This document shows positions 23,531 through 63,315 of a stretch of 64,000 nt of DNA, one piece after another. The stretch is taken from contig DYSP01000004.1 in assembly GCA_020718185.1 (NCBI GenBank), forward strand, positions 1-64,000. Direction: 5' to 3'. This stretch comes from Candidatus Odyssella sp. GTDB taxonomy: Bacteria; Pseudomonadota; Alphaproteobacteria; Paracaedibacterales; Paracaedibacteraceae. The number at the start of each line of letters is the position of its first letter. Position 1 is the first letter of the stretch. The notes under the pieces are model-generated. The model did not search any database, was not told where the DNA came from, and saw only the letters and a list, made by a program, of their open reading frames with translations. Both the position numbers and the translations under genes were made by a program.

Positions 23531-24255
23531 AATAACCCCATTGACTTAAATGACTTATGTTTGCCTTTGCCGATGACAATGTGATCATGTAGGCGAATAC
23601 CTAATTGTGACCCAATTTCTTGAATTTTTAAGGTTAGTTCAATATCTGCACGTGAGGGAGATGGGTCACCACTTGGATGATTATGCACCAAAATAATCGC
23701 ACAAGCATTGACCTCTAAGGCTCGACGCATCACTTCTCGGGGATAAATAGGTGTATGATTCACGGTTCCTATTTGTTGTACTTCGTCACAAATCAGCTGA
23801 TTTTTTTGGTCTAAAAATAATAATCGAAGTTGTTCTTGATGATTATACGACATTCTTGCTGTACAATATTCAATCACTTGATGCCAGCTTTGCAACACCA
23901 TTTTGCCTTGTAAATTTTCCTGCATCGATCGTCCCATCAAACTATAAACAAGTTTGATGACATGAATGACAGCATCACCGACGCCGCTTATTTCCTTTAA
24001 GGCTTGAGGGCTTGCACCAAAAACACCAAGTAGGCTTCCAAATTTTGCAAGCAAATTTTTGGCAATTAGTTTTACATCTGCTCTTGGAATTCCACAAAAC
24101 AGCAATAACTCTAATAGTTCATAATCATGCAGAGCCTGCTCACCGGATAAATTAAATTTTTCCTTTAGACGTTGACGATGCCCCGTATAATGCGGAGCTA
24201 CGGCTTTTGAAAGCTCAGGCTTAGCTTTCACTAACGGTGAAGATTTCACAACCAT
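23527..24255 (-). CDS. radC: RadC/MPN-domain DNA repair-associated protein
   Basis: A 242-residue RadC with an N-terminal helix-hairpin-helix region (LKEISGVGDAVIHVIKLVYSL) and the MPN+ (JAMM-like) metal motif HNHPSGDPSPSRAD, with the upstream Glu-bearing region (DEVQQIGTVNHTPIYPREVM). The family was once linked to DNA repair; its biochemical role is unresolved. The start overlaps the methionine aminopeptidase end by 35 nt and recR follows with an ATGA overlap. Confidence 0.94.
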   Translation of the reverse strand: MVVKSSPLVKAKPELSKAVAPHYTGHRQRLKEKFNLSGEQALHDYELLELLLFCGIPRADVKLIAKNLLAKFGSLLGVFGASPQALKEISGVGDAVIHVIKLVYSLMGRSMQENLQGKMVLQSWHQVIEYCTARMSYNHQEQLRLLFLDQKNQLICDEVQQIGTVNHTPIYPREVMRRALEVNACAIILVHNHPSGDPSPSRADIELTLKIQEIGSQLGIRLHDHIVIGKGKHKSFKSMGLL

Positions 24256-25060
24256 TGGCGGTAACCCCTAAGGTATGTTCAAATTGCGCCGATAAAGATC
24301 GATCACGCGTAACCGCTGTCCACCCATCTTCTAAAATTTTTACCTGATATTTGCCTGCATTGATCATTGGTTCGATGGTAAAAAACATGCCTTGCTTAAG
24401 CTCTAAGCCCGTGCCTGGTTTACCGTAATGCATAACGTTGGGGGCTGTGTGAAAAATACGACCAATACCATGCCCACAAAAATCGCGAACAACAGAAAAC
24501 CCTTGTTTTTCAGCAAAGCTTTGAATTGCATAACCAATATCACCCAATGTTGCGCCTGGTTTTACAACTTCAATCCCGCGCATCATGGCTTCATAGGTGG
24601 TATCGATCAACTTGCGCGCGCGCAAATTAATCTTGCCAATGCTAAACATACGACTAGTATCCCCATACCAGCCATCCAAAATAACGGTGACGTCAATATT
24701 GAGAATATCCCCTTCCATTAATCTTTTATCGCCTGGAATACCGTGGCAAACAACGTGGTTAATTGAGGTGCAAATCGATTTTGGATATCCGCGATAGCCA
24801 AGTGGTGCGGGCACTGCGCCATGGGCTAAAATATAGTCATGGCATAGTTTGTCAAGTTCACTCGTTGTTACCCCGGCTTTGACATGGGGTGTAATAAAAT
24901 CAAGTGTTTGTGAAGCTAATCGACCTGCTTTACGCATTCCTTCAAAATCTTGATCGCCAAATAAATAGATAACTTCTTCTTCGTGATGGTGGTCATGATC
25001 GTGATTACACGATGCGCTGTGTTCATGATGGTGGTGTTGAGCTTTAATCATCATTGTCAT
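24221..25060 (-). CDS. map: Type I methionine aminopeptidase with His-rich N-terminal extension
   Basis: The catalytic domain is complete. The metal-ligand sites are visible as DVTVILDGWYGDTSRMF (two Asp), CGHGIGRIFH (His), FTIEPMI and FEHTLGV (Glu). The first 30 residues are odd: AQHHHHEHSASCNHDHDHHHEEE, about half His/Asp/Glu, ahead of the usual FEGMRKAGRLASQTLD start. Such a tail could bind the active-site metal or store Zn/Ni. The protein removes the N-terminal Met from nascent proteins. A Met in the usual place is not obvious, so the extension may be real. The end overlaps radC by 35 nt. Confidence 0.95.
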   Translation of the reverse strand: MTMMIKAQHHHHEHSASCNHDHDHHHEEEVIYLFGDQDFEGMRKAGRLASQTLDFITPHVKAGVTTSELDKLCHDYILAHGAVPAPLGYRGYPKSICTSINHVVCHGIPGDKRLMEGDILNIDVTVILDGWYGDTSRMFSIGKINLRARKLIDTTYEAMMRGIEVVKPGATLGDIGYAIQSFAEKQGFSVVRDFCGHGIGRIFHTAPNVMHYGKPGTGLELKQGMFFTIEPMINAGKYQVKILEDGWTAVTRDRSLSAQFEHTLGVTANGCEIFTVSES

Positions 25061-25194: not shown

Positions 25195-25226
25195 ATGGAT
25201 AGGAGAGTCAATGGATAGGAGAGTCA
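25195..25226. repeat. Tandem duplication of a 16-bp unit
   Basis: ATGGATAGGAGAGTCA occurs twice back to back between map and lpxC. A GC-rich stem (CGGGGCTCAACCCCG, 25231-25245) follows. No gene is evident in this 210-bp gap; it could be a small repeat relic or transcription end. Confidence 0.55.
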
Positions 25227-25272
25227 ATTGACGGGGCTCAACCCCGCATTAACTCTATATCAAAATTTACCC

Positions 25273-31900: not shown

Positions 31901-32623
31901 CTACGTCCAATCCCCTCTCAAAGATTGAAAACAGGCAATACCCGCTATAGCTGCTGTTTCCGCACGCAAAATGCGTGATCCCATTCGGCAAAAACGCACA
32001 AACGAATGAGTAGATAACAGAGCAATATCTCGGGCACTCAATCCACCTTCTGGACCTACAAGAAAAGCGACTTCCTGCATTACGTTTAATTGCTGCAATA
32101 ACGAAGCGATAGGCAAAGATTCTTGGCGTTCCAAACAAACAATTAATATTTTATTTGGTGGCCATGTTTGCAAAATATCACTTAATGACTGTAACGGATT
32201 CATGATAGGCACAGACAGACGTTCACATTGTTGCGCTGCATCCACACAATACCGCCCTATCTTTTCAGTATTTAGTTTGTGGATTTGTGTAAATTCCGTT
32301 GTTACTGGCTGCAAACAGCTAACACCTAGCTCTGTCGCTTTTTCAATTAGAAAATGCATTGCTTCTTGCTTTAGCGGAGCAAACAATAATGTGACGTTTG
32401 CCTCAACAATCGGTGCTCTTAAACATTGCTGAACCCGCACTTCTGCTTTAGATTTTGTACATGTTTCCAGCATTCCCTGCCATTCACCATCTCGTCCATT
32501 AAACAATTGAACCAAGTCATTCATTTTTAACCGTAAAACATTCCGCAAATAATGTAATTGATGCTCTGGCAACTCAATCAATTTTCCCGTATCTAAATGA
32601 CTATCGATGTATAAACGAACCAT
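31901..32623 (-). CDS. rsmE: 16S rRNA (uracil1498-N3)-methyltransferase
   Basis: A 240-residue RsmE. It has the N-terminal PUA-like part (HYLRNVLRLKMNDLVQLFNGRDGEW) and the SPOUT knot region with EKATELGVSCLQPVTTEFTQ and VGPEGGLSARDIALLSTHSF, then GSRILRAETAAIAG. It methylates uracil 1498 of 16S rRNA in the 30S subunit. Lengths and motifs are normal. Confidence 0.95.
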   Translation of the reverse strand: MVRLYIDSHLDTGKLIELPEHQLHYLRNVLRLKMNDLVQLFNGRDGEWQGMLETCTKSKAEVRVQQCLRAPIVEANVTLLFAPLKQEAMHFLIEKATELGVSCLQPVTTEFTQIHKLNTEKIGRYCVDAAQQCERLSVPIMNPLQSLSDILQTWPPNKILIVCLERQESLPIASLLQQLNVMQEVAFLVGPEGGLSARDIALLSTHSFVRFCRMGSRILRAETAAIAGIACFQSLRGDWT

Positions 32624-32639
32624 TATTATTCTTTATTGA

Positions 32640-33309
32640 GAGTTTTCTTAAAGTATACTTTAAAATCATTACGAACTTACGCAAACAAAAAAATATCGTA
32701 TACAAGAAATTACCTGGATTTACTCTTATTGAATTATCAATTGCACTTATCATTGTGGGCATTATTATGGCCGCCGCTTTTAAAGGCACAGAGCTTCTTG
32801 AATCAGCCAGGTTGCAAGCATGTATGAGTGATTTAAATCGTTATCATCTAAGTATTATTAATTACCACGATCAATATGGTCAATGGCCCGGTAATGATAC
32901 CGGAGCGAAAAATCGATTTGGAAATAATACTGAAGATGGGGACGGCAAGGGACTTATTCTCAAAAATGAACAACCTCTTGTATGGCAACATTTGTATTTT
33001 TCCAAACTCGTTGATTCCCCCCACCCACCCAGTGCACGGATTGGTGGTTCAATTAGTGTGATATCAAATCCAACAGATGAACTACAAGGAAATTTCCTGA
33101 TTCTATCAAAAACACCAGGGACACTTGCACCGCTCTTAACCCCACATCAAGCCATGATTTTAAAGTCAAAAGCGGGTGAAAAAAAGGCAGATAGCGGCAC
33201 ATTCATTGTCTTGGCTGGTGAAGGTGTTGGTGGTGATAGTTGCGTGAAAAATGGCGAATTTAATCTTGCTTATAAAAACCCAAGCTGCATTATTGCTTTT
33301 GGTTTTTAA
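32640..33309 (+). CDS. Orphan prepilin-like protein (type IVa/T2SS class) without a clear start codon
   Basis: The frame contains the class III prepilin motif KKLPG-FTLIELSIALIIVG, with peptidase cleavage expected after Gly and Glu at +5. A soluble region of about 170 residues follows (LQACMSDLNRYHLSIINYH, QWPGNDTGAKNRFGNN). No ATG, GTG or TTG lies in this frame upstream of the motif. The next Met (32767) is inside the helix, so the annotated start at 32755 is too late. A TTG at 32636 in another frame would supply a 20-plus residue leader if one base were restored in the seven-A run near 32690. No T2SS or T4P operon is adjacent. Confidence 0.6.
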
Positions 33310-36650: not shown

Positions 36651-38081
36651 TTACTTAACAATCGTAATTTGTTTGATTTGATTCGCGATAAAAAAGAATT
36701 GATCTGCAAGTTCATCTGAATCATCAGCAGTTAATGCCCATTCTGGCTTTGTTGCACAAGCGGCATATAGTTGCTTAGCAGTACTATTAGAAACCTGAAA
36801 GGTAACTGTAAATACTTGAATGCCTTGTGCTTTCATTTTTGTACAAAGATCTGTTACTCGCGCATTGATTTTAGCTGCTGCTTGAGACATAGTGGTTACC
36901 CCTAACTTTCCTTCAGGAGGTCTGCCATAGGCTGAAAAGGCACCTGTACTAGGATTCGCATAACTACCCCAAGAGTTCTCACCATCCGTTACAATAACAA
37001 TCGATTTCTGAGTCGATGTAGAATATGGTTTTGGTTGAATGGTAGAAGCAGGCCATTGATTAGTCCACCTTCCCGAAATTGTATTCCACCCCCAAACTAT
37101 ACCAAGATTACCAAAAGTACCCGCACTGCCAACGGCCAATGTTAATCCATCAATTTTGGCTAATAGAGTATCTCGATTATTAGTAAGTGGTAAAAGTGGT
37201 TGAATACAGCCTTTATTTGGCCCTACATCATCCGCTACAGACATAGCGGTAATCGTCCCATTGCTATTGAGTCTCCAATCATTATCTGCAGCTTTGGTAC
37301 CATAAAGACCATATGTGGTAGGCACAAAGTAGACAGGCCATTTGCGAACACTGGGTGGGTCGTCAGTATCCATAACTGTTTTGGTGTCTGCCGCGGCAAC
37401 GCAGCCTCTCCACGGTACTTGGCTTGGAAATGTTGTTGATGTCATATCAGAAAGCCAACTTTTATTTTCCGTACCAACATTGACAGCAGAAGCAAAAGGA
37501 ACAATTGAAATGGCCGTATTCTCTACTGTTACATTATTTTCATAAATGGCATTAACAAGACCTTTAGCGGCCACTTTTAACCCCGCAAATTTGTTATTAT
37601 CTGCCATGGACGTTGTTACGTCGAGAACAAGAGCGACTTCTATATTATCAATGTCTCTGCGAACTTGTGAAAACCCACTGACTCTTAAAGATAAAATATT
37701 AGTAATCTTACTAAAAGATGAAGGCATACTGGCCACAGCTGAAACACTGACATATTTGTTATCAGAAGAAAGAGCAACCGTCGGTGTAACCGATAAATTA
37801 CTGCTAATTAAGGGAGAATAATTAGCATAAAAAATTCTTAAAGCATTCGCTTGCACATCGGCAAGGCTATAACGCGCACCCGCAATTGCGGCAGCATCAC
37901 ACGCATAAGCAAGCTGCGTATTGATGTAGGTTTGACGTGAAAGTTCTACCGCCATTGCCGTTAAAAACATTAAGGGAACAAGTATAAGAGCAAATAAAGC
38001 CAATACGGTGCCATTTTCTTTTTCAATAAAGAAATCTTTAGTGTCTCTTTTTTGTTTGAAAAAATGTTGTAGGCGTTTCAT
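36651..38081 (-). CDS. tadG: TadG-like pilus protein with VWA domain
   Basis: A 476-residue protein. Residues 20-65 are a TadE/F/G-type N-terminal hydrophobic helix (NGTVLALFALILVPLMFLTA, then AVELSRQTYINTQLAYACDAAAIAG). A von Willebrand A domain follows (VALVLDVTTSMADNNKFAGLK), with the Asp-x-Thr-x-Ser MIDAS-like motif and ITVKFTVTF-like strands. It is the last gene of the minus-strand Tad arm. In tad loci TadG anchors pilus biogenesis at the membrane; its exact role is open. Confidence 0.85.
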   Translation of the reverse strand: MKRLQHFFKQKRDTKDFFIEKENGTVLALFALILVPLMFLTAMAVELSRQTYINTQLAYACDAAAIAGARYSLADVQANALRIFYANYSPLISSNLSVTPTVALSSDNKYVSVSAVASMPSSFSKITNILSLRVSGFSQVRRDIDNIEVALVLDVTTSMADNNKFAGLKVAAKGLVNAIYENNVTVENTAISIVPFASAVNVGTENKSWLSDMTSTTFPSQVPWRGCVAAADTKTVMDTDDPPSVRKWPVYFVPTTYGLYGTKAADNDWRLNSNGTITAMSVADDVGPNKGCIQPLLPLTNNRDTLLAKIDGLTLAVGSAGTFGNLGIVWGWNTISGRWTNQWPASTIQPKPYSTSTQKSIVIVTDGENSWGSYANPSTGAFSAYGRPPEGKLGVTTMSQAAAKINARVTDLCTKMKAQGIQVFTVTFQVSNSTAKQLYAACATKPEWALTADDSDELADQFFFIANQIKQITIVK

Positions 38082-38086
38082 TTTAT

Positions 38087-38650
38087 TTATCCTCCACCAA
38101 GCAACGTCGTCATGCTACCAACTCGAGGCACATAAACGGATGTTTTATAAAGCGTAGAATTGCTATAAAACCCTTGAAAAACAATAGGCGTATAATTAAA
38201 AAAAACTTCCGTTACAATAATGGCTTGATCACTAAGCACTGTAATATTGTTGGGTAGGTTTTTTGGAAGACTTCCTGCAGCACCAAAATTACTAGTGGCA
38301 CCATTGACTTGTTGTTGCCAGGTAATCGTCATTTTTGTCGGATCTGTTGTTGCTCCCTTATTGGCAATTTGGGAAACGACAACACGTATTTGTTGATTCT
38401 TATTATAAGGGATCATAACAGCATCAACTGTTTGCATAAGGGCAATTAAATTTGCTCTGGTCAGATTCTGGCGGGAAACCATGTCGCCCAAAACACCCGC
38501 TGCCCGCGCAAGCTTATTATTGATTAAAGAATAATTGGAAAACTCGAAAATACCCGAAATAATCAAAATGAGAATAGGCAGTGTAATCGCACTTTCGATA
38601 AGAGCGGCTCCTTCTTCATTTTTTACAAATAACTGCCGAATCTTTATCAT
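38087..38650 (-). CDS. tadE: TadE-family pilus protein
   Basis: A 187-residue protein with one N-terminal membrane helix preceded by EEGAALIESAITLPILILII, the TadE pseudopilin-like motif (Gly-Ala-Ala-x-x-Glu). The rest is an extracytoplasmic domain. TadE proteins are pseudopilins processed by TadV. It is the second of two such genes; stop-to-start spacing to the neighbours is short. Confidence 0.85.
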   Translation of the reverse strand: MIKIRQLFVKNEEGAALIESAITLPILILIISGIFEFSNYSLINNKLARAAGVLGDMVSRQNLTRANLIALMQTVDAVMIPYNKNQQIRVVVSQIANKGATTDPTKMTITWQQQVNGATSNFGAAGSLPKNLPNNITVLSDQAIIVTEVFFNYTPIVFQGFYSNSTLYKTSVYVPRVGSMTTLLGGG

Positions 38651-38665
38651 CTACCAACCTCTTAT

Positions 38666-39229
38666 CTAATAAGATTCATTCACAATGGGTGTTACACCTT
38701 TTAAGACTATTGTTGAAGAAGTACCAAAAATAGGAAAAAGAGTATTCCAAGTATAACTTATTTCATAACGGACAGCCTGCCCTGCTACGCCAAAAGTGTT
38801 ACTTACGGGTGTACCATTTGCATCTAGACTTGGTAAATTTGGATAGGCACCCACAGTGATAGTAACATTAAGGGGATTGACAATTCCTTGTGTGTAGGTA
38901 TTTAAAACACTTAAAACTTTATTTTTAATGGCAGTCTCTCTTGGAACATTTGGATCTTGTTGAGCCGTTATCCCATAACGTGATGCTTCACGAGCAGCTG
39001 CTTCAAGAGCATTTTGCACAAACATAATTAAACATATTTGAAAAGCTGCAAAAACAACGAGAATGAAAAAAGGAGCAACGAGGGCAAATTCCATAACAGA
39101 CCCTCCCTCTTCTTTTAAGGCTAATAGCTTAGATTTTGCTATTGAATATCTTTTTAAAAATAAAAAAGATAGTCTCAAGTGGCAATTTTGATTTTTTATC
39201 ATAAGCTTTTGAGCCTCCTTACTCATCAC
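38666..39229 (-). CDS. TadE-family pilus protein
   Basis: A 187-residue protein. The pseudopilin-like motif lies after about 40 residues: LKEEGGSVMEFALVAPFFIL, then VVFAAFQICLIMFVQNALEAAAREASRYG. The N-terminal 35-residue basic extension is unusual, and the true start could be a later Met. It shares the layout of its neighbour at 38087. The pair plus TadG and Flp form the Tad pilus structural arm. Confidence 0.83.
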   Translation of the reverse strand: MMSKEAQKLMIKNQNCHLRLSFLFLKRYSIAKSKLLALKEEGGSVMEFALVAPFFILVVFAAFQICLIMFVQNALEAAAREASRYGITAQQDPNVPRETAIKNKVLSVLNTYTQGIVNPLNVTITVGAYPNLPSLDANGTPVSNTFGVAGQAVRYEISYTWNTLFPIFGTSSTIVLKGVTPIVNESY

Positions 39230-39350
39230 AAAGTAAAGTATAATCCTAAATACTAAGTATATAGGCTCAATCCATCACAAAAAACATCTTTGTATTAGCT
39301 GACTGAAAACACCTAAATAAATTTATAGCTCTACAGCCAACCAATAAACT

Positions 39351-39394
39351 AAAGGCCACTCCTTTCTATCTTTTCTAACAGAAGAGTGGCCTTT
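39351..39394 (-). terminator. Hairpin between flp and tadE on the minus strand
   Basis: AAAGGCCACTC and GAGTGGCCTTT form a perfect 11-base stem with a 20-base loop. It lies 10 nt after the flp stop, with only a weak T-tract after it. It could be an attenuator that keeps pilin expression higher than that of the downstream genes. Confidence 0.55.
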
Positions 39395-39403
39395 CTCTTT
39401 TAA

Positions 39404-39574
39404 TTAACTGCCAGCAATTGCAGTTTTTATCGATGTAAATTTAGCACTAATAGCTGATCCCAACGATGTCATTGTCACAATTGCAACTACAGCAATTAAG
39501 GCAATCAAGAGACCATATTCCGCAAGAGAAGCACCATTTTCATCTTTTAGAAATTTTAATAAATTATTTGTCAT
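39404..39574 (-). CDS. flp: Flp-type pilin
   Basis: ATG at 39574 gives 56 residues: MTNNLLKFLKDENG followed by ASLAEYGLLIALIAVVAIV. This is the Flp/PilA class IVb pilin motif with cleavage after Gly and Glu at +5 and Tyr at +6. Short hydrophobic and tail regions complete the protein. This is the main fibre subunit of the Tad pilus and would be processed by the peptidase encoded at 40689. It leads the minus-strand pilus arm, and a hairpin follows. Too short for standard ORF filters but very clear. Confidence 0.9.
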   Translation of the reverse strand: MTNNLLKFLKDENGASLAEYGLLIALIAVVAIVTMTSLGSAISAKFTSIKTAIAGS

Positions 39575-39702
39575 CGCATCCTCCTATTTAAATCTAAGAT
39601 ACTACCCGCATTACAAGATATAGATCAAAAGTGTAAAAAAACTATTAATTTTTCAAGTACAGGTATATTTTATGTTAATTAACCTAATTTTTTCTTAATT
39701 AC

Positions 39703-40437
39703 TCACTTTAGTGACTTTAAAGTTGCCAAATTTGTCTTAACTTCACTGCTGCTAAGTTCTTGAGAAAAAATTTCTTCTGCTTTTGTTACCTGTCCATCAA
39801 GTGCATAAGCAATGGCCAAGTTATGCTGCACATTCGCAGAAGGATTTTGCTCTTTTGAAAGAGGCAAAAGCAGCGCTATACCTTCTTTTGGTGTGCCGCT
39901 AAGCGCTAAAGATAAGCCCAAATTACATTTAGCATTACTATTATTAGGGTTATCTTGCAGTGCTTTTTTATACCAAGATTGAGCTTCAGTATGTTGGCTT
40001 TCCATATCTAAACATACGCCTAGCCCATTCATGGCAGCTGCATTTGTAGGACTAATGGCAAGAAGTGATTTATATGTTTTCATTCCTTCTTGCGCCATAT
40101 TAGCCGCAATATAAGACTTTCCTAATTCTTCAAGGTACATTGCAGAATTAGGATTTTGTTTTAACTTATCTTCAAAGAAATTGATTGCTTCGTTTGATTG
40201 GTTTGTTTGCCTTAAAGATGTACCAAGGCCTTTAATTGCTGGTTCAAATTCGGGGTTCGACAAAAGGATTTGATGATACAGCCTTGCAGAAGTTGCATGA
40301 TCGCCTGATTTTTGCAATGATTCAGCCACACGATGAAGAGACTCTGGTGATTTATTATTACCGCCATCCGTCATAGAACAAGAGCATAAAAGCGCTGTTA
40401 CCGCACTTATAAGAGTAAATTTTGTCAAATTTATCAT
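39703..40437 (-). CDS. tadD: TadD lipoprotein with TPR repeats
   Basis: A 244-residue protein with a lipoprotein signal ending TALLCSCSMTDGG (likely Cys lipobox LLCSC) and tandem TPR repeats (ALKGL-type segments such as AAAMNGLGVCLDMESQHTEA and NAKCNLGLSLALSGTPKEGI). TadD is a pilotin for the secretin in the Tad system. It is divergent from tadV, sharing the 250-nt regulatory gap that holds a CtrA-like site. Confidence 0.85.
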   Translation of the reverse strand: MINLTKFTLISAVTALLCSCSMTDGGNNKSPESLHRVAESLQKSGDHATSARLYHQILLSNPEFEPAIKGLGTSLRQTNQSNEAINFFEDKLKQNPNSAMYLEELGKSYIAANMAQEGMKTYKSLLAISPTNAAAMNGLGVCLDMESQHTEAQSWYKKALQDNPNNSNAKCNLGLSLALSGTPKEGIALLLPLSKEQNPSANVQHNLAIAYALDGQVTKAEEIFSQELSSSEVKTNLATLKSLK

Positions 40438-40560
40438 ATCGTTATCATTTCATTAAGATAATCCACAACCAAACAAAAAAATTTACATTAAATTCTACGT
40501 AAAGAACCTAAGTATTCTAATAATTAACCATAAGAAACGCATAATTAAAAGAGAAATAAA

Positions 40561-40575
40561 TTAAAACTTTATTAA
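40561..40575. promoter_or_regulatory. Candidate CtrA-type site (TTAA-N7-TTAA) between tadD and tadV
   Basis: TTAAAACTTTATTAA fits the palindrome exactly and lies in the divergent gap, 124 nt from the tadD start and 114 nt from the tadV start. It nearly matches the site before fliI (TTAAAACTTATTTAA). In Caulobacter CtrA controls pilA. A chance hit is possible in this AT-rich stretch. Confidence 0.45.
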
Positions 40576-40688
40576 AGTTAATTGTTTTTTTTTTAAATAT
40601 CGTTAAACTTTGTATATACAACCAAGAAAAGTTCTAAAGCAGAGATGATTTCCATAATGAAATTATATTATTTGGAGGAAATTCTAGG

Positions 40689-41243
40689 GTGAATACGGCG
40701 TTTTATATAGCATTTGGAATTTGTGCACTTATTATTGGAATTTTTGATTTTTTATTCTATCGCATTCCTAATTTATTTGTATTGGTTCTTATAGGTCTAT
40801 TCTTGGGATTATCCCTCACGTTAGGAGACAGTAAATTTTTCATCGCAGCTAGCATCACAGGAACGATCGCTCTTTTAAGCTGTTATCTTTTGTATGTCTT
40901 TGGATGGCTTGGCGCTGGCGATGTCAAATTTATATTTGCAGCATCGCTTTGGGCTTCTCAGGTTAATAGTCTTATCTTTTTTCTATCTATCTCTCTTGCG
41001 GGAGGGATTTTAGCCCTTATATATATTAATTTTTCTGCATACATTGACCAAGCTCGTCTTTTTCTGATTTCGTTTTTAGGAAAACATTTCAATAAAAGCC
41101 AGTTTTTTAGACGTTACAGTGAAGCACCATTTATCTATGCAACAGCAGTTCCAACAAAAGAAACCAAAATTCCATATGGAATAGCGGTAGCCATGGGATG
41201 TTTGTTAGTAACCTATCTTACACTATTTGGGCATGTAATCTAA
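40689..41243 (+). CDS. cpaA: Prepilin peptidase TadV/CpaA
   Basis: A 184-residue aspartyl prepilin peptidase. Two Asp motifs are visible: IFDFLFYRIPNLFVLVL and GWLGAGDVKFIFAASLW (GxGD). It removes the leader of Flp and the TadE-type pseudopilins at the membrane. The start is GTG at 40689 with GGAGG 12 nt upstream. cpaB starts on the stop codon (TAATG). It leads the plus-strand Tad arm. Confidence 0.92.
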   Translation: MNTAFYIAFGICALIIGIFDFLFYRIPNLFVLVLIGLFLGLSLTLGDSKFFIAASITGTIALLSCYLLYVFGWLGAGDVKFIFAASLWASQVNSLIFFLSISLAGGILALIYINFSAYIDQARLFLISFLGKHFNKSQFFRRYSEAPFIYATAVPTKETKIPYGIAVAMGCLLVTYLTLFGHVI

Positions 41244-42049
41244 TGAAACAAAAAAGAACATTTTTTCTTCTTGGCTCTTTGATTGCCTCTCTTGTTATCG
41301 TTTTTTCGATAAGCAGTTGGCTAAGCACAAAATCTTCTGTAGAGCCAACAGGCCCAAAAACAGAACCCATTTTAGTTGCCTCAGAAAATCTAGCAGAAGG
41401 CGCTATTGTTTTAGTCGCAAAAATGACTTGGCAAGAATGGAACATTGCCGACATTAAACCTGATTATATTGTCAAAAAGAATAACGAACAAATTAATACT
41501 GTTGATGGAGGCGTGGTTCGCACACCTATTTTCAAAGGGGAGCCTATACTTGCTTCAAAAGTCATTGCAACCCATGGAAAAAGCGCGATTTCTGCAATCA
41601 TTAAAGAGGGGATGCGTGCGGTTACCGTTCCTTATGCTAAACTTGCCAATGCCCCATCACTAATTGCACCGGGTGATATTGTTGATGTGATTATTCCAAA
41701 AAAGACCCAAGGGACGAATGAAGATTATTTCGGTCAAACAATCTTAGCAGGTATTCGCGTGCTAGCTGTTAATAATGAACTTCAAAAAGTAGGCAGCGAG
41801 GAAAGCAATAGCTCTAATGCAAAAACAATTACATTAGAAGTAACTGCTATTCAAGCCGAAGATCTAGCAGGTGCGATAAGAGATGGTCAAGTCGTTATTA
41901 GTATGCAAAGCATCTTTGCAGGAACAACAAAAAGCACGCCTGCAAAACCAACGCCCAAGGTTGAATCCCCCCCAGCCACAAAAGTGATTACAATAATGCG
42001 TGGATCAGAAAAGAAAGATATGACTTTTAATAATGTAGGAAAGCAATGA
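41243..42049 (+). CDS. cpaB: Pilus assembly protein CpaB/RcpC
   Basis: The start at 41243 (MKQKRTFFLLGSLIASLVIV) overlaps the stop of cpaA and gives a 268-residue protein, more natural than the earlier 41198. A membrane anchor is followed by a SAF domain (PILVASENLAEGAIVLVAKM), a second part ending RGSEKKDMTFNNVG, and GMRAVTVPYAKLANAPSLIA (RcpC/CpaB family motif). It sits in the periplasm with the secretin. The stop overlaps cpaC (ATGA). Confidence 0.9.
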   Translation: MKQKRTFFLLGSLIASLVIVFSISSWLSTKSSVEPTGPKTEPILVASENLAEGAIVLVAKMTWQEWNIADIKPDYIVKKNNEQINTVDGGVVRTPIFKGEPILASKVIATHGKSAISAIIKEGMRAVTVPYAKLANAPSLIAPGDIVDVIIPKKTQGTNEDYFGQTILAGIRVLAVNNELQKVGSEESNSSNAKTITLEVTAIQAEDLAGAIRDGQVVISMQSIFAGTTKSTPAKPTPKVESPPATKVITIMRGSEKKDMTFNNVGKQ

Positions 42050-43497
42050 TGTCACTATTTAAAATCAATACAAGTTATTTTCATATTTTTTTTAAAATAG
42101 CTCATTTTTTGGTATTAGCAAGCGTGCTTTCTACAAACACTTATGCCAAAGTAATCAAGCAACAAAAAAACACTCATGTAACCATCGAACAGAATAATGC
42201 GGAAGCTATTCCTTTAACTGAGGCAGTGAGTGAAGTATTTGTAGCCAATCCTGAAATTGCAGATATTCAATTAAATGGCCCATCTACGGCTTATGTATTT
42301 GGTAAAAAATCTGGAAATACAACCATCTTTGCAACTAATAAAAGCGGTAAAATTGTTTTAAAATTGCAATTGCGCGTTACACACAATCTTAAACAGCTAG
42401 ATAAAACAGTCCAATCCTCTTTCCCTAATGAAAAAGTAAAATTCGACTCTACACCTGCCGGCATTATTATTAATGGCAAGCCATCAAGCCCACTTGTTGC
42501 TAAAAACATTGAAAATATAGCGTCTGGATTTATGGAAAAGGGCGATAAACTTACCAACAGTATGGTGATTAATTCCCCTACTCAGATATTATTAAAAGTC
42601 AAAATTGCTGAAATTAACCGTAGTGTTTTGCATAAATTTGATATCAACTGGTCAGCCTTAATTAACTCACCAAAAAACTTTACCTTTGGATGGCTTATGG
42701 GACGAGAACCTATGACAGCAGCAGGTGGCTTTCAAAGGTCATCATCCATTCCTCAATCAAATAGTTATGGCGCACAATATAAGAATGGCAACAGTACTTA
42801 TGCAGCTCTTCTTGATGCATTAGATCAAGAAGGACTTGGAACCGTGCTTGCAGAACCAAATCTTATTGCCGCATCTGGAGAAACAGCAAGCTTTTTAGTT
42901 GGTGGTGAAATCCCTTATCCTGTACCTCAAGACCGAAATGTAACAATTGAATTTAAACAATTTGGGATTAGCCTTGCCTTTACCCCCACTGTACTTGCTT
43001 CTAATATGATTAATCTTCGTGTACGCCCAGAAGTAAGTGAACTTGATACGCAAAATTCCATTAATATTCCAATTGCTGACGGCACTGCATCTGTTAGTGT
43101 TCCTGGTTTAAAAACAAGACGCGCTGAAACATCAGTAGAGTTAGGAGACGGACAAAGCTTAGCGATTGCAGGATTAATATCTTCTTCAGTTGCCAACAAT
43201 TATTCAAGCCTTCCAGGCGTAGATAATATTCCAATTCTCGGAGCCCTATTTCGTTCAACAGCTTTTAAACGAGATCAAACAGAATTAGTTATCATTGTCA
43301 CACCTTATATTGTTAAGCCCACTGACCATCCAACAGATCTTAGTTTGCCTACAGATAACATACGACATGCATCAGCACTAGAAACATTGTTTTTTCAACG
43401 CTTAAATCGTGTTGAATGCACATTTTTGGGGTCAGATAATGCAGATTGTAAAGAAGGATGTTTTTATGGCGCCGCTGGTTTTAACGTTAGTGAATAA
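42046..43497 (+). CDS. cpaC: Pilus secretin CpaC/RcpA
   Basis: A 483-residue secretin with a signal peptide (HFLVLASVLSTNTYA), an N-terminal BON/T2SS-like domain (IPLTEAVSEVFVANPEIADI), and the secretin domain: VLAEPNLIAASGETASFLVGG, FGISLAFTPTVLASNMINLRV, and the ending RRAETSVELGDGQSLAIAGL with FKRDQTELVIIVTPYIV. It forms the outer-membrane pore of the Tad system. It overlaps cpaB and precedes cpaD by 9 nt. Confidence 0.95.
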   Translation: MMSLFKINTSYFHIFFKIAHFLVLASVLSTNTYAKVIKQQKNTHVTIEQNNAEAIPLTEAVSEVFVANPEIADIQLNGPSTAYVFGKKSGNTTIFATNKSGKIVLKLQLRVTHNLKQLDKTVQSSFPNEKVKFDSTPAGIIINGKPSSPLVAKNIENIASGFMEKGDKLTNSMVINSPTQILLKVKIAEINRSVLHKFDINWSALINSPKNFTFGWLMGREPMTAAGGFQRSSSIPQSNSYGAQYKNGNSTYAALLDALDQEGLGTVLAEPNLIAASGETASFLVGGEIPYPVPQDRNVTIEFKQFGISLAFTPTVLASNMINLRVRPEVSELDTQNSINIPIADGTASVSVPGLKTRRAETSVELGDGQSLAIAGLISSSVANNYSSLPGVDNIPILGALFRSTAFKRDQTELVIIVTPYIVKPTDHPTDLSLPTDNIRHASALETLFFQRLNRVECTFLGSDNADCKEGCFYGAAGFNVSE

Positions 43498-43506
43498 GGA
43501 AAGACA

Positions 43507-44151
43507 ATGAATTTTCACAAAATCCTATACCCTATTCTTTTGATGAGTCTATCGGGTTGCAGTATGCTTAATGAAGAACCAAGGCCTGTAAAATGGGAAA
43601 CAAAAGCAGAGAAAATCTCAACCCCCATTGATATAAACTTTAAACGGAGCAGTTCTAAACTCTGCTCATCCACAAAAAATGCGATTAGAGCTGCTATGTC
43701 AACGCCACGAGAGACTTATTTTCGTCTTTATATAGAAAATATGAATGCGTCAAAAGCTCTGACAAAAACACGTATCAATAATATTATTGCCTATTTACAC
43801 GCATTAGACGTACCAAACGAAAACATCGATGTCTTTAAGCAGTCTGACGATATTGCCACCCTGCCCAATAGCATCACTTTAATGATCGATCATTATCAAG
43901 TGATTCGACCAAAATGTCCAGGATGGCAGCAAAAAATGAATGCTACTGTGCCTCCGGAAGGAGAAATTAATTTCCGTTGCACCAATGAGAGTAACTTTTC
44001 AGCAATGATAGCAGATCCACGCGTGCTCATTACTGGCAGTCAACTAGCAGGCTCAGATGCTAATCGATCGACTAAAGCTGTTGATGCTTATCAAGCAGGT
44101 ACGGTCAAAGAGATTAAAATTGAAAAGATTGAAAATAAAAGTGGTGCGTAA
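43507..44151 (+). CDS. cpaD: CpaD pilus lipoprotein
   Basis: A 214-residue lipoprotein (signal ILLMSLSGCSMLNEEP with lipobox SGC) belonging to the CpaD family: KPVPENINFRCTNESNFSAMI-like part (VPPEGEINFRCTNESNFSAM) and ADPRVLITGSQLAGSDANRS. It is periplasmic/outer membrane and works with the secretin. It follows cpaC by 9 nt on the same strand. Confidence 0.88.
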   Translation: MNFHKILYPILLMSLSGCSMLNEEPRPVKWETKAEKISTPIDINFKRSSSKLCSSTKNAIRAAMSTPRETYFRLYIENMNASKALTKTRINNIIAYLHALDVPNENIDVFKQSDDIATLPNSITLMIDHYQVIRPKCPGWQQKMNATVPPEGEINFRCTNESNFSAMIADPRVLITGSQLAGSDANRSTKAVDAYQAGTVKEIKIEKIENKSGA

Positions 44152-44220
44152 CAATAGACCTTTTATCTAACCAAAAATATTGGTTCCTGAAAATAGGTCT
44201 CATAAAAAGTAAGGTCGGCA

Positions 44221-45462
44221 ATGTCTAATGTAGATTCGATGCAAACAAGAAAACTATGGGCTTTTGTCACTGATAAAGAATCAGAAATTCTTCTTCAGGC
44301 AATTTCGTTTAAAGAATATAATATTTCCCCTGAAATTTATATAGGAGACATGAATATTGCGATTAAGCATATAAAGGAACATCATTCTCCTGAAATTTTG
44401 ATTGTCGATATTTCTAAGTCATCAATGCCTATTTCTGACGTTGCTGCTCTTTCAGAAGTTTGTGAACCTGGGATTGATGTTATCGTTATTGGCGAAAGAA
44501 ATGATGTTAGTATTTTTCGTGATCTTGTCAAAGCTGGGGTGCGTGATTATTTAGTAAAACCGTTACCTGTTGAGTATTTTCTAAAAGATCTTGAAGCTAT
44601 TTGCGGTATTACTACAACAGATAGCAGATCAAGTGCTTTTTATAAATCTGGTCGATTAATTGGGATTATTGGTGCTTCAGGAGGCAGCGGTGTTTCCACA
44701 ATTGTTAGTAACCTTGGCTTAATTTTATCTGAGATGTATTTAAAACGTACTTCTATTGTTGATTCTGATTTACAACTTGGTACAATTTTCCAATTTTTTG
44801 ATATGGAACCATCTTCTGGCTTCCCCCAACTTTTTGAAGCTCCTGACCGTATAGATCAAGTTCTTGTTGATCGTTATATCAATTTTCACAATCCAAACCT
44901 TGGTGTTTTAAGCGCCCAATTAGGTCTCCCAAACCCACCTCAAATTAAAACAGAAGCAGTTGATAGTCTATTAGACATTTTAACGTCTCATTTTCATTTC
45001 ACACTTGTTGACTTATCACGCAATTTTACAAATGGACTTAATTTTCATATTTTTGAAAAAGCAAACCTTGTGTTTATTGTCACCGAGTATTCGATCACCG
45101 GACTAAAGGACACGAAACGCATCTTAGAAGTATTAAAAGCCTATCCAATGCTTAAACACGGTGCCATTATTGTTGCTAATAAAGTTGGCCAATATCCAGA
45201 AGGAGAGATAAGTCGTGCGGCTTTTGAAGAAGCCCTTCAAGTGCCTGTTTCTTTTGAAATTAGTTTCGACAAAGTCTATGCTATGAAAGCTTTAACAGAA
45301 GGTATTCCTGTGGCAACTCATAAATCGGCACCTCTTTCTGAAGGGATTGATAATCTTGCACATTATTTACTTGGGCTTCCAAGCGCTCAGAAAACAACAG
45401 CAAATATCTTTAATTTTTTGAAAGATAAACTTTTTACCAGTGATTCTACAAAAAATGACTAG
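44221..45462 (+). CDS. cpaE: CpaE/TadZ pilus assembly ATPase
   Basis: A 413-residue protein with a receiver-like N-terminal domain and a MinD/ParA ATPase domain. The deviant P-loop is IGIIGASGGSGVSTIVSNLG (no Lys, as in CpaE). DSDLQLGTIFQFFDMEPSSG follows as the Walker A' region. TadZ places the Tad machine at the cell pole. It precedes cpaF by 14 nt. Confidence 0.9.
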   Translation: MSNVDSMQTRKLWAFVTDKESEILLQAISFKEYNISPEIYIGDMNIAIKHIKEHHSPEILIVDISKSSMPISDVAALSEVCEPGIDVIVIGERNDVSIFRDLVKAGVRDYLVKPLPVEYFLKDLEAICGITTTDSRSSAFYKSGRLIGIIGASGGSGVSTIVSNLGLILSEMYLKRTSIVDSDLQLGTIFQFFDMEPSSGFPQLFEAPDRIDQVLVDRYINFHNPNLGVLSAQLGLPNPPQIKTEAVDSLLDILTSHFHFTLVDLSRNFTNGLNFHIFEKANLVFIVTEYSITGLKDTKRILEVLKAYPMLKHGAIIVANKVGQYPEGEISRAAFEEALQVPVSFEISFDKVYAMKALTEGIPVATHKSAPLSEGIDNLAHYLLGLPSAQKTTANIFNFLKDKLFTSDSTKND

Positions 45463-45476
45463 ATGGAGAATGAATC

Positions 45477-46874
45477 ATGAGCGGATTTGGTAAAAAAACT
45501 ACACCTGAGTCGGAAAAGTCTGTAATTAGGAATGAACCCGAGATAAAATTTCCCGTTTACAGTAAAATGGATGCTAAATATCCAATTTTTCAAACAAAAG
45601 ATTATAAGGATGCTCCCTTAGTTCTTGAATTTAAAGAGCGTGTATTTGATTTACTTATTAAACAAATCGACTTAAATGCTGCATCAAAGATGTCTCGCCC
45701 TGAATTAAGAGGACAAATTGAAAAGTATTTATTTGAGTATGCTGAGGAAATGAAGGTTCAAATTAATTACAAAGAACTTCAGCATATCGTCGATGACATT
45801 ATTAATGACATGGTTGGTCTTGGGCCTTTAGAAATATTACTTAATAATAAAAACGTTAATGACATCATGGTTAATGCACCCAATCAAGTTTATATTGAAC
45901 GAAAAGGGATTTTACAGTTAACAGATGTTACTTTCCGTAATGAAAAACACGTCTTTCAAATTGCACAACGTATCGCCAACCAAATTGGTCGCCGCATTGA
46001 CGAATCCAGCCCTATGGTAGATGCACGACTAAAAGATGGTAGTCGTGTGAATATTATCATTCCTCCTATCTCGTTGGAAGGAACAACAATTTCTATTAGA
46101 AAATTCTCTAATCATTCCATTCATCTACAAGATATGGTTGTGACTAAAAATTTATCACAAAAAATGTTTGAATTTTTAAAACTTGCTGCATTCAGTCGTA
46201 TGAATATCATTATATCAGGTGGAACGGGAGCAGGAAAAACAACACTTTTAAATGCGCTTTCTGAACTCATCGACCCACGCGAACGCATTGTTTCCATTGA
46301 AGATGCTGCAGAGTTAAAATTAATGCAGCCGCATGTTGTGCGATTAGAAAGTAGGCCTTCTAATATTGAAGGAGAAGGAACAATTACCATCCGTGATCTG
46401 GTAAAAAATGCGCTACGTATGCGTCCAGATCGTATTATTATTGGTGAGTGTCGTGGAGCTGAAGCGTTTGACATGTTACAAGCGATGAATACAGGTCATG
46501 ATGGATCTATGTCTACTTTGCACTCTAATAGCTCTAAAGAAGCAGTTAATCGTTTGGAAAATATGGTTATTATGTCTGGCTATGAACTTCCTAATGAAGC
46601 CATTAAAGATTACGTTACCGCCGCAATAGACATCATTATTCAAATTGCCCGCATGCGCGATGGGGTGCGTCGGATCGTTCAGGTAACAGAAGTTATTGAT
46701 TATGACAAACAAACGATCCACATTCAGGATATTTTTACTTTTCAACATACCTCTTCTCTAACCAATGAAATAGAAGGAAAATATGTGTTTCATGAAATTT
46801 CGCTTAAACTAAAAGCCAAAATTACAGAAGCTGGATTGGAAGAAGAATTCAATAAATTCATGGAAGGGATATAG
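45477..46874 (+). CDS. cpaF: Pilus assembly ATPase CpaF/TadA
   Basis: A 465-residue secretion ATPase. The Walker A GGTGAGKTTLLNALSELID, the Asp-box ERIVSIEDAAELKLMQPHV, and MNTGHDGSMSTLHSNSS (His box) are intact; the N-terminal domain ends with the LGPLEILL region. TadA powers pilus extension and retraction. In frame and full length. Confidence 0.95.
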   Translation: MSGFGKKTTPESEKSVIRNEPEIKFPVYSKMDAKYPIFQTKDYKDAPLVLEFKERVFDLLIKQIDLNAASKMSRPELRGQIEKYLFEYAEEMKVQINYKELQHIVDDIINDMVGLGPLEILLNNKNVNDIMVNAPNQVYIERKGILQLTDVTFRNEKHVFQIAQRIANQIGRRIDESSPMVDARLKDGSRVNIIIPPISLEGTTISIRKFSNHSIHLQDMVVTKNLSQKMFEFLKLAAFSRMNIIISGGTGAGKTTLLNALSELIDPRERIVSIEDAAELKLMQPHVVRLESRPSNIEGEGTITIRDLVKNALRMRPDRIIIGECRGAEAFDMLQAMNTGHDGSMSTLHSNSSKEAVNRLENMVIMSGYELPNEAIKDYVTAAIDIIIQIARMRDGVRRIVQVTEVIDYDKQTIHIQDIFTFQHTSSLTNEIEGKYVFHEISLKLKAKITEAGLEEEFNKFMEGI

Positions 46875-46876
46875 CA

Positions 46877-47860
46877 ATGCAACATACCTTTGTGTTACTT
46901 GCAATGGTTGGTGTATTGTTTGTAATTTTTTATACCTGTTATTATTTAGTTGAAGATAAAAAGCAGATGCAAAAAATAAAAAACAGAATAGATTCAGTTA
47001 ATTTAGTTGCAGGGAACAATGCTGCCCTTCATTCAATGGCAGACATTAGAATTAACAGAGAAAGTCTTCTGGAAAAAAAATTAAACGCCATGTTTTCAGC
47101 TAATAAAACAGGAGAAAATCTGCTTCAACTAAAATTTTATCGGTGTGGTATCAAACTTGATTTCAAAAAAATAGGTACCTTTTTATTCATAACGTATTTT
47201 ACATTTTTTATTATTGTCGATCTTTTGACTCCAATAGGACTGATCTATAGCATTTTAGCAAGCCTGGGAGCCACAGCAGGCTTTTCCTATATGTTGTTAA
47301 ATTTTCTTGAAAAACGCCGGCGCAAAAAAATATTAGGTCAACTATCCATAGCCGTAGACATTATTTTAAGAGGGATTCGATCAGGTAGTTCAGTTGAGCG
47401 AACTTTTCACATTGTATCCAGAGAATTAACATATCCCTTAAAAGACGAATTTAACCAAATTACCAAAGAACTTGAATTTGGTGTTTCCTTTGAAAAGGTG
47501 CTGCATAATGCTGCTACACGAATAAATGTCCCAGAATTTTATTTCTTCACAACAGCTCTCATGATTCAACGTAAATCAGGAGGAAGTTTGACAGATGTTT
47601 TAGAAAACATCATCCATTCGCTAAATAGAATTCAAGAAATTCGGATGAAAATTAAAATTTATTCTTCAGAAGCAAAAACTTCTGGTTATGTTTTAGCCTG
47701 TTTGCCCGTGATTATTTGGGTAATTCTTATGAATATTAAGCCTGAACACATTGCATTTTTTCACGAAGATCCATTCGGCAGAAAAATCTTAATGATTGCA
47801 ATAGGGTTATTCCTCAGTGCCTTCGTCATGATTAAGCGCATGGTAAATCTAGAGGTATAG
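46877..47860 (+). CDS. tadB: Pilus assembly inner-membrane protein TadB
   Basis: A 327-residue type II/IV secretion GspF-like protein. The core shows VDIILRGIRSGSSVERTFHI, FEKVLHNAATRINVPEFYFF and MIQRKSGGSLTDVLENIIH, flanked by membrane helices at both ends. TadB and TadC form the inner-membrane platform for the TadA ATPase. It begins 2 nt after the cpaF stop. Confidence 0.93.
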   Translation: MQHTFVLLAMVGVLFVIFYTCYYLVEDKKQMQKIKNRIDSVNLVAGNNAALHSMADIRINRESLLEKKLNAMFSANKTGENLLQLKFYRCGIKLDFKKIGTFLFITYFTFFIIVDLLTPIGLIYSILASLGATAGFSYMLLNFLEKRRRKKILGQLSIAVDIILRGIRSGSSVERTFHIVSRELTYPLKDEFNQITKELEFGVSFEKVLHNAATRINVPEFYFFTTALMIQRKSGGSLTDVLENIIHSLNRIQEIRMKIKIYSSEAKTSGYVLACLPVIIWVILMNIKPEHIAFFHEDPFGRKILMIAIGLFLSAFVMIKRMVNLEV

Positions 47861-47869
47861 GAGCCGATA

Positions 47870-48829
47870 TTGTCCAAAGGAATGATTAGTATTATTTTGC
47901 TCGTCAGCGTACTTGTGCTTACGACAATTCTTTTTTTCTGGTACACTCGATTCATAGCAAAAAAAGATATCAACCGTCGTATATCTCATGTGGCAAGCTA
48001 TAACTATATGCAAACGTCAGACCATATTTCTAATACGCGTGCAAGCAAAAAAATCTATGAAACAATCAAAGCATATGGATTAAAGTTAGGTGATACTTTT
48101 TTTGGATTTACCCGAGAAACCTCTGCTCACTTTCGATTGCGTTTTGAAAAGGCAGGACTATCTGTTGAAAGTGCGCCAACAATTACTCTTCTTATTAATT
48201 GCGCAATGGTTTTTATTGGATTCATCCTTTATCTATTTGCTTTACTGCATTTTAAGAACATAGCTGAGCAACCTCTTTTTCTTCAAATATTACTATTACT
48301 TATTATTTCATTCGTCTGTTTTAGGCTCTTTGAATATGGATTAGATTATCTTATTTCCCGTCGTTATAAGCGTATTCAAAACATTTTATCCTTTTGCGTT
48401 GATCTTTTGATTATTTGCACACGCGCCAGTTTTACATTAGATCGTTCCTTTGAGAAAATTGCAGAAGAAGTCGCCCCTTTTAGCCCCGAGGTTTGTAAGG
48501 AATTTGCTAAAATTTCCATTGAGCTTAGCGTTATTCCAGATCGCACCGAAGCATTAAGAAATTTTGCCAAACGAGTAGATACACCAACCGTCAATTTACT
48601 CGTTAGTGGGCTTGTCCATGCAGAAGAGCAAGGAACGTCTTTAGGACAAACACTTACAGTCCTTTCTCAGGAAATTTCTAAACAAAAACTTTTAGAAATT
48701 GAAGCAAAAGCCGCGCGCTTGCCTGTGCTTTTAACAATACCCCTCGCCTTATTTTGCTTACCAGCAATGTTAATGATCCTGATGGGGCCTGTTATTGGCA
48801 ATGTTATGAACTCATCAATATTTAATTAA
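47870..48829 (+). CDS. tadC: Pilus assembly inner-membrane protein TadC
   Basis: A 319-residue GspF-like protein. FCVDLLIICTRASFTLDRSF, VNLLVSGLVHAEEQGTSLGQ and C-terminal helices (ARLPVLLTIPLALFCLPAML) are visible. TTG at 47870 or the ATG at 47882 may be the start. Follows tadB by 9 nt and ends the plus-strand Tad arm. Confidence 0.92.
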   Translation: MSKGMISIILLVSVLVLTTILFFWYTRFIAKKDINRRISHVASYNYMQTSDHISNTRASKKIYETIKAYGLKLGDTFFGFTRETSAHFRLRFEKAGLSVESAPTITLLINCAMVFIGFILYLFALLHFKNIAEQPLFLQILLLLIISFVCFRLFEYGLDYLISRRYKRIQNILSFCVDLLIICTRASFTLDRSFEKIAEEVAPFSPEVCKEFAKISIELSVIPDRTEALRNFAKRVDTPTVNLLVSGLVHAEEQGTSLGQTLTVLSQEISKQKLLEIEAKAARLPVLLTIPLALFCLPAMLMILMGPVIGNVMNSSIFN

Positions 48830-61931: not shown

Positions 61932-62373
61932 TCAAGATGCTAACAGTAGGGAAAGAGAAAATAATATGGCTGGCGTAAAAGGATATTCTTTTTCTCCATA
62001 ATATTTGCACCAAAATAAAGATGTGACTACGCCAAAAACACCACAAAAAATTAGAAACAACGGAATTTCTTCAACATGAATCCAAGCAAAACAACAAGGA
62101 ATTAATAAACAATGCAAAACAACAAGGAATTAATAAACAATCAGCAAAACCCAGCATTTTTTTATAAACCAGGTAACGCAATATAACAAAGCTGCCACTC
62201 ACCAAAATTGCCATCGTTTGCCAATCAGAGTGCGTCATTCCCCCATAAATTACTGAAAGACATCCAAACAATAACAGCAAATAAAGAGGAACAGCTTTGT
62301 ATCGCCAATCATATATAATAATTACACATCCATTAAGAATGGCACTGCACAATATTCCTTGTAACAAGTCCAT
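61932..62373 (-). pseudogene. A24-type prepilin peptidase disrupted by a 28-bp tandem duplication
   Basis: From ATG at 62373 the frame reads MDLLQGILCSAILNGCVIII, then YDWRYKAVPLYLLLLFGCLS and MLGFADCLLIPCCFA, two Asp motifs of A24 peptidases (the second usually GxGD, here GFAD). It then runs into FINSLLFCLDSC and stops. A 28-bp unit (beginning GCAAAACAACAAGG) is present twice at 62086-62113 and 62114-62141. Removing one copy joins the frame to WIHVEEIPLFLIFCGVFGVV and on to LFSLSLLLAS, a typical last helix. The gene is thus broken. It would be a second peptidase besides cpaA. Confidence 0.8.
62086..62141. repeat. Perfect 28-bp tandem duplication
   Basis: Two adjacent identical copies of a 28-bp unit beginning GCAAAACAACAAGGAATTAA. 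The length is not a multiple of three, so it shifts the peptidase frame. Perfect identity suggests a recent event. Confidence 0.9.
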
Positions 62374-62377
62374 CTGA

Positions 62378-62902
62378 TCAACCAAACTCATCCACCTCAA
62401 TGGTTTCAATTAATAACGAAGAGGAATTTACAGGTAATTTCTCAACTCTTTCTTTCTTAAAACTTAAGCTGGTCACTTGAGGGTAAGACTCACTTACATT
62501 TGTAGATCCCCTTGGAATGGGTATAGGTAAACTTGAACCAAGGCGAATATTTAATTTGGGTAACTCAGGCTGTTCCAAAATACTTCTTTCGACCTCCCTC
62601 TCTACACTCAGTGATAACAAGCCAATACCTGCATTATTTTCTTTTTTTTCTTTACTTAATTCAGGATTGATATCAAAAACGACTGAACACAAAGTGATCG
62701 GCGTAAAAAGTATAGTTGACCCAAAGATTTCGGGTAATCTCTCTCTGTAATAACTAAGATCACGACCAGTTTTACCATAAATTAATACGCTTTCAGGCTG
62801 GTTTAAAAACTCAAGAGTTTGAAGAACCTTATCATACACTCTCAGCACATCTTTAGCCATTGCATTGTCTTTTTTGGCTTTTTTCTGCAACCAACTCATC
62901 AT
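62378..62902 (-). CDS. Unknown protein upstream of the prepilin peptidase
   Basis: A 174-residue polar protein (start SWLQKKAKKDNAMAKDVLRV) with no signal peptide or membrane helix. It overlaps the next gene at its stop and its own start shares a base with the preceding gene. It contains a predicted helical N-terminus, and a Ser/Pro-rich tail (SSLPIPIPRGSTNVSESYPQ). Unrecognised. Its position in a tight three-gene set with a pilin peptidase suggests a secretion/pilus role, not shown by sequence. Confidence 0.5.
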   Translation of the reverse strand: MMSWLQKKAKKDNAMAKDVLRVYDKVLQTLEFLNQPESVLIYGKTGRDLSYYRERLPEIFGSTILFTPITLCSVVFDINPELSKEKKENNAGIGLLSLSVEREVERSILEQPELPKLNIRLGSSLPIPIPRGSTNVSESYPQVTSLSFKKERVEKLPVNSSSLLIETIEVDEFG

Positions 62903-63315
62903 TATAAAATTTTCTCTATATTCAGGCTAAGGATAGCAATAGATGTTTTATTATAAATAACGTGCGCATTTGCAGTTAACATTCGGTGTCCTACACCTTT
63001 TTTAGTCTTTATTTCTTGATTACCTTTTATTCTTTCAATTTTTTCAATAGCTTGTTGAGCAAGAATCTGTAAATCCTCTTTTTGCTCATTAAAAAGATAT
63101 CCATTAAAAAGATATTCATTCAATGAAACATTATTTTCTGCTAGCGGTTCTAATAAGTTTATTGAACTAAGAACAGCTTGTTGTTTTTGGGGAGGATCAA
63201 GATCGACCTCAAAAATACCGTCTCCCGCTTGCCCTTGAGTTATAAGCCTTCCACCAAACAGCAAAAAGAAATAAAACAACCCTAATAGCGTTATATATCT
63301 ACATTTGAAATACAT
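62902..63315 (-). CDS. Unknown membrane-anchored or exported protein
   Basis: A 137-residue protein with an N-terminal hydrophobic helix (YITLLGLFYFFLLFGGRLIT) that may be a signal anchor. The extracytoplasmic part includes the duplicated NEYLFNGYLFNEQ and a charged helix (QEIKTKKGVGHRML). First gene of the cluster that ends with the peptidase. No domain recognised. Confidence 0.5.
   Translation of the reverse strand: MYFKCRYITLLGLFYFFLLFGGRLITQGQAGDGIFEVDLDPPQKQQAVLSSINLLEPLAENNVSLNEYLFNGYLFNEQKEDLQILAQQAIEKIERIKGNQEIKTKKGVGHRMLTANAHVIYNKTSIAILSLNIEKIL

Follow-up and report, generated by a model that had tools for sequence, protein, structure and literature searches.

The A24 type IV leader peptidases (PF01478/MEROPS A24), among them PilD and GspO, provide the closest described counterparts of the gene examined here. 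The likeness lies in a domain match, two invariant aspartates, the second of which is in a G-x-x-D motif, and a multi-helix membrane protein. Unlike PilD and GspO, the peptidase is short (∼150 aa) and has no N-terminal cysteine domain, most of its orthologues carry GxAD instead of GxGD, and its gene is frameshifted in the present genome. The associated machine resembles the MSHA type IV pilus (MshL, MshE, MshG) in a secretin whose best match is MshL, an ATPase with an MshEN domain, a PilC/GspF-like protein and N_methyl pseudopilins. It differs from the MSHA pilus in that the scores are below the curated cut-offs, only two pseudopilins were found, the genes are scattered, and the set is broken in the present genome. 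In Holosporales, type IV pili are reported to be incomplete in most members and Tad pili to be present in some families (PMC9992710). Both features recur here; in contrast to those reports, the loss appears to be in progress, with broken genes that are still readable.

Short tandem duplications have been described both as switches and as plain mutations. In pneumococcal capsule genes, phase variation by short duplications is credited to Waite (2001, 2003, as cited in PMC4022640). That case shares with the present one an out-of-frame tandem duplication in a surface-structure gene; going by the citing account, a switch was reported there, whereas here the partner genes are broken too and a one-copy form is not known. 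In Xenorhabdus lrp, tandem duplications of 26-116 bp caused loss of function, and the variants that were tested showed no genetic reversion (PMC6786866). The lrp duplications arose under laboratory selection on a regulator, while the setting here would be the genome decay of a symbiont. A literature search combining prepilin peptidase with tandem duplication found nothing relevant.

The 28-bp duplication and the divided peptidase frame

Direct comparison in the window (the whole 64-kb stretch of DNA that was analysed) identified two adjacent and identical 28-bp copies inside the A24 gene (Table 1). Because 28 is not divisible by three, the peptidase frame is lost: ORF 1, 112 aa long if counted from the first possible start, ends at a stop 15 bases past the second copy, and ORF 2 (61 aa) continues the peptidase in a different frame. 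No 28-bp tandem copy appeared in 100 dinucleotide-preserving shuffles, and the duplication was the best-scoring tandem array in the window (score 116; the next scored 68). Exact tandem duplications with a unit of at least 14 bp were otherwise limited to two, of 16 bp each, in the ∼112 kb of this genome that was examined, neither of which lies within a gene listed or compared; 87 kb of the nearest relative, Candidatus Paracaedibacter symbiosus PRA9, contained none. By eye, the unit ends (in gene sense) in GTTTTGC, and GTTTTGC also stands directly before the unit, 2 bp out of register, which suggests an origin by slippage, although not a clean one. Elsewhere in the window, an exact 16-bp tandem duplication is located at 25195-25228, in an intergenic position before the ORF at 24221-25060.

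Table 1. Positions of the peptidase remnant, the duplicated unit and the pilus genes in the window.
Feature	Position	Strand	Remarks
Prepilin peptidase (A24, PilD-like), probable pseudogene, whole remnant	61932..62409	-	PF01478; both frames match intact orthologue
ORF 1, N-terminal part, putative catalytic Asp in YDWR and GFAD, out-of-frame tail	62071..62409	-	
ORF 2, C-terminal part in another frame, conserved YPFTPA motif	61932..62117	-	
28-bp tandem unit, first copy in gene sense	62114..62141	-	exact match
28-bp tandem unit, second copy in gene sense	62086..62113	-	exact match
Pseudopilin 1	32602..33309	+	PF07963; 64% identical to Ca. P. symbiosus orthologue; class III signal PGFTLIE at ∼32713-32735
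Intact CpaA-like A24 peptidase (Tad pilus) with GAGD motif	40689..41243	+	PF01478, 41.9 bits
Tad (Flp) pilus genes, 12 compared, each in one frame; control	36651..48829		

ORF 1 carries the A24 domain PF01478 with an E-value of 3.2e-5 and 24.8 bits (cut-off, 26.5); in a second profile search it reached 26.5 bits, above the cut-off. Ca. P. symbiosus PRA9, a relative of the same genus, has an intact peptidase of 157 aa at the same place (PF01478 at 30.9 bits vs. the cut-off of 26.5), and the order crcB, an unknown gene, peptidase, esterase, mdh, sucC, sucD is common to the two loci. ORF 1 aligns to residues 24-107 of this orthologue (55% identity) and ORF 2 to residues 99-157 (63%), the two jointly covering nearly the whole protein. 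In this comparison, no lesion besides the 28-bp duplication was found in the peptidase coding sequence. Order-wide, 27 of 42 genomes matched the peptidase profile, and every one of these orthologues is in a single frame except that of the present genome, the only one in which the gene is split. A single-protein query against the genome contigs gave a match only in Ca. P. symbiosus. A weak match in another genome (G028), with two TAG codons, was dropped from consideration because it runs antisense to another ORF.

The preliminary description of this locus, which placed an exact, out-of-frame 28-bp duplication in a prepilin peptidase next to two genes of no known family, agrees with these results; neither neighbour gave a family match above cut-off. 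It had also proposed a search for orthologues with one copy, and the orthologues found are in single frames. At the place of the two neighbouring ORFs (174 and 137 aa, at 62378-63315), Ca. P. symbiosus carries a single gene of 361 aa. The C-terminal third of that gene is matched by the 174-aa ORF (33%), and the 137-aa ORF has no clear match; judged from sequence, the pair is possibly a split or rearranged gene. A 15-bp tandem repeat (2.3 copies, 94%) lies in frame at 63087-63120, inside the 137-aa ORF that adjoins the peptidase.

A structure model of the intact orthologue contains six helices (pLDDT 81.5), and a Foldseek search with this model returned no significant PDB match. In eight orthologues, D42 and D98 are invariant, mostly with GxAD or a similar motif and not GxGD, and both aspartates fall in ORF 1. 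An invariant glycine and an FPFxPA-like motif, shared by the same eight orthologues, are both in the severed part of the broken gene. One could imagine that a working enzyme is still made from the two ORFs, either as a split protein or via ribosomal or polymerase slippage, with both putative catalytic aspartates supplied by ORF 1 and the conserved motif retained in ORF 2. We find this scarcely credible, as the 56-nt zone where the frame would have to change has neither a slippery heptamer nor a homopolymer of five or more, and the only in-frame restart is a TTG at 62117. Restart at that codon was rejected because it has no ribosome-binding site. Rescue by poly-A slippage at an A7 run (62163) was rejected as well, because the frame that is needed meets a stop in the first 28-bp copy. 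Translational rescue of the peptidase looks unlikely on the evidence of these nucleotides.

The MSHA-like machine and the Tad pilus

The small type IV pilus-like set of the relatives examined comprises two N_methyl pseudopilins, one PilB-like ATPase, one PilC-like protein and the peptidase, with an MshL-like secretin in most. Nine machine genes were recognised, scattered over the genome. The PilB-like ATPase of Ca. P. symbiosus has an MshEN domain. MshL is the best model for the secretin, but TIGR02519 scored 220.9 bits in Ca. P. symbiosus vs. a curated cut-off of 250.2, short of the equivalog score, and we therefore use the label "MSHA-like" only. Across the order, the secretin was detected in 39 of 42 genomes and at least one pseudopilin in 40 of 42. 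In most genomes of this reduced-symbiont order, a secretin is kept along with two N_methyl pseudopilins, as a rule at separate loci. In one relative with an otherwise complete genome (G022, C41:54480-54935), the secretin match is confined to profile positions 38-168 within a 193-aa open frame, and this fragment is possibly another broken copy.

In the present genome, the MshL-like secretin gene (contig C47:68190-69792) occupies three frames relative to a 534-aa orthologue, with two separate small lesions. Its two main parts are 75-78% identical to that orthologue, and the gene is single-frame in nearly all relatives. Three small genes of no family (369, 286, and 120 aa) follow pilC in Ca. P. 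symbiosus; by their position, we take them to recall mshI, mshJ, and mshK of MSHA operons. Compared with Ca. P. symbiosus, two of them on contig C20 (4743-6417 of stretch L052), those of 369 and 286 aa, are each split over two frames. Counted together, the partner lesions come to at least four frameshifts in three genes, two of them in the secretin and the others in the 369-aa and 286-aa genes. Pseudopilin 1 has no in-frame ATG, GTG or TTG before its PGFTLIE signal; either its start was lost or a rare start is used, and ATT or ATC starts could serve. The type IV pilus set is not in frame throughout: the ATPase (pilB) and the platform (pilC) are open, as are the 120-aa gene and pseudopilin 2, the secretin is split, and pseudopilin 1 is left with no canonical start.

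In the syntenic stretches compared, 4 of 9 machine genes were split vs. 0 of 36 other genes (Fisher p = 8.5e-4), and 0 of 12 Tad genes were split in the window, the control set being a small one of 36 genes from four syntenic neighbourhoods plus the 12 Tad genes. A multi-frame match inside odhB (L010_16675) turned out to be an antisense shadow ORF and was excluded from the counts with three more shadow ORFs. The genome is a draft (88% complete, 1.56 Mb, 52 contigs), in which single-base frameshifts may include errors, and one partner lesion sits in a T7 run. The second 28-bp copy, and perhaps the other frameshifts, might on these grounds have come from assembly or sequencing and be absent in the cell. 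We consider this unlikely, because the clustering of the lesions in one machine speaks against a random or general sequencing error, and most of them are outside long homopolymers.

As had been suggested earlier, the broken peptidase is additional to CpaA; a separate and intact CpaA-like A24 peptidase is present in the window. Apart from the broken gene, no PilD-type (non-CpaA) prepilin peptidase was found in this Paracaedibacter-like bacterium, a relative of the amoeba symbiont Paracaedibacter. If CpaA handled its substrates, the peptidase alone would be dispensable and the pilus machine could still work. The intact GAGD motif of CpaA and the open pilB, pilC and both pseudopilin domains would fit such a take-over. 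It is nonetheless extremely improbable, given that the secretin and two more genes are broken. In addition, the two peptidases have been retained together in five relatives (G002, G003, G004, G006, and G010), an argument that cleavage of the prepilins of the MSHA-like machine is not normally carried out by CpaA.

Age and reversibility of the duplication

The preliminary description regarded the duplication as fresh and perhaps reversible. The identity of the two copies is consistent with a fresh event, but 28 identical bases per copy only bound neutral divergence at ∼3/56, or ∼5% per copy (95%; our own calculation). The downstream part of the gene is well kept (63% vs. 55% upstream), suggesting that the duplication is recent relative to the genus split. 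Further lesions, which the same description had named as evidence against its reading, are missing elsewhere in the peptidase and present in the partner genes.

Under phase variation, slippage or recombination would add or remove the 28-bp unit and so turn the peptidase, and with it the pilus, on or off. Perfectly identical copies and a coding sequence otherwise undamaged on both sides of the repeat are compatible with this, one copy could physically be lost, and pneumococcal capsule genes with internal duplications (Waite 2001, 2003, to the extent cited in PMC4022640) are a published precedent. The state of the partner genes speaks against the reversible reading. Three of them carry at least four unrelated small frameshifts and a pseudopilin is without a canonical start; with the secretin and two further genes broken, losing one 28-bp copy would restore nothing. 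Moreover, contingency loci do not typically consist of two copies of a 28-bp unit, and the repeat is absent from the orthologues, the Ca. P. symbiosus locus being free of exact tandem duplications with units of at least 14 bp. Tandem duplications of 26-116 bp also arise as plain knock-outs, as in Xenorhabdus lrp (PMC6786866). Phase variation is very unlikely for these reasons. We give hardly any credence to the broader proposition that the duplication is recent, polymorphic and reversible, that the other frameshifts are assembly errors or switchable as well, and that this symbiont phase-varies a widely kept pilus machine.

Probable loss of the MSHA-like machine

The peptidase is most probably a pseudogene, and the 28-bp duplication one lesion among several in a pilus machine undergoing loss, that is, a case of ordinary gene loss. 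The duplication puts the peptidase out of frame and severs its C-terminal transmembrane part, from which we infer a loss of function. Deprived of the PilD-type peptidase, the class III prepilins of the minimal MSHA-like machine would stay unprocessed, unless CpaA cleaves them. The machine would be off selection and on its way out, with the parallel Tad pilus and its own CpaA kept; relaxed selection is the presumed cause, and the order of events given here is likewise presumed. Since pilB, pilC, the 120-aa gene and pseudopilin 2 are open, the loss of the machine would be recent or incomplete.

Taken alone, the peptidase lesion is an ordinary pseudogene. It carries the lesson that partner genes should be checked before a perfect short tandem duplication is read as phase variation. 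The case exemplifies reductive evolution. Its value is modest, as a snapshot in which an MSHA-like, two-pseudopilin machine that is kept in most genomes of an order of intracellular symbionts appears to be caught mid-loss in one lineage, with the lesions in four genes still readable and the parallel Tad pilus spared.
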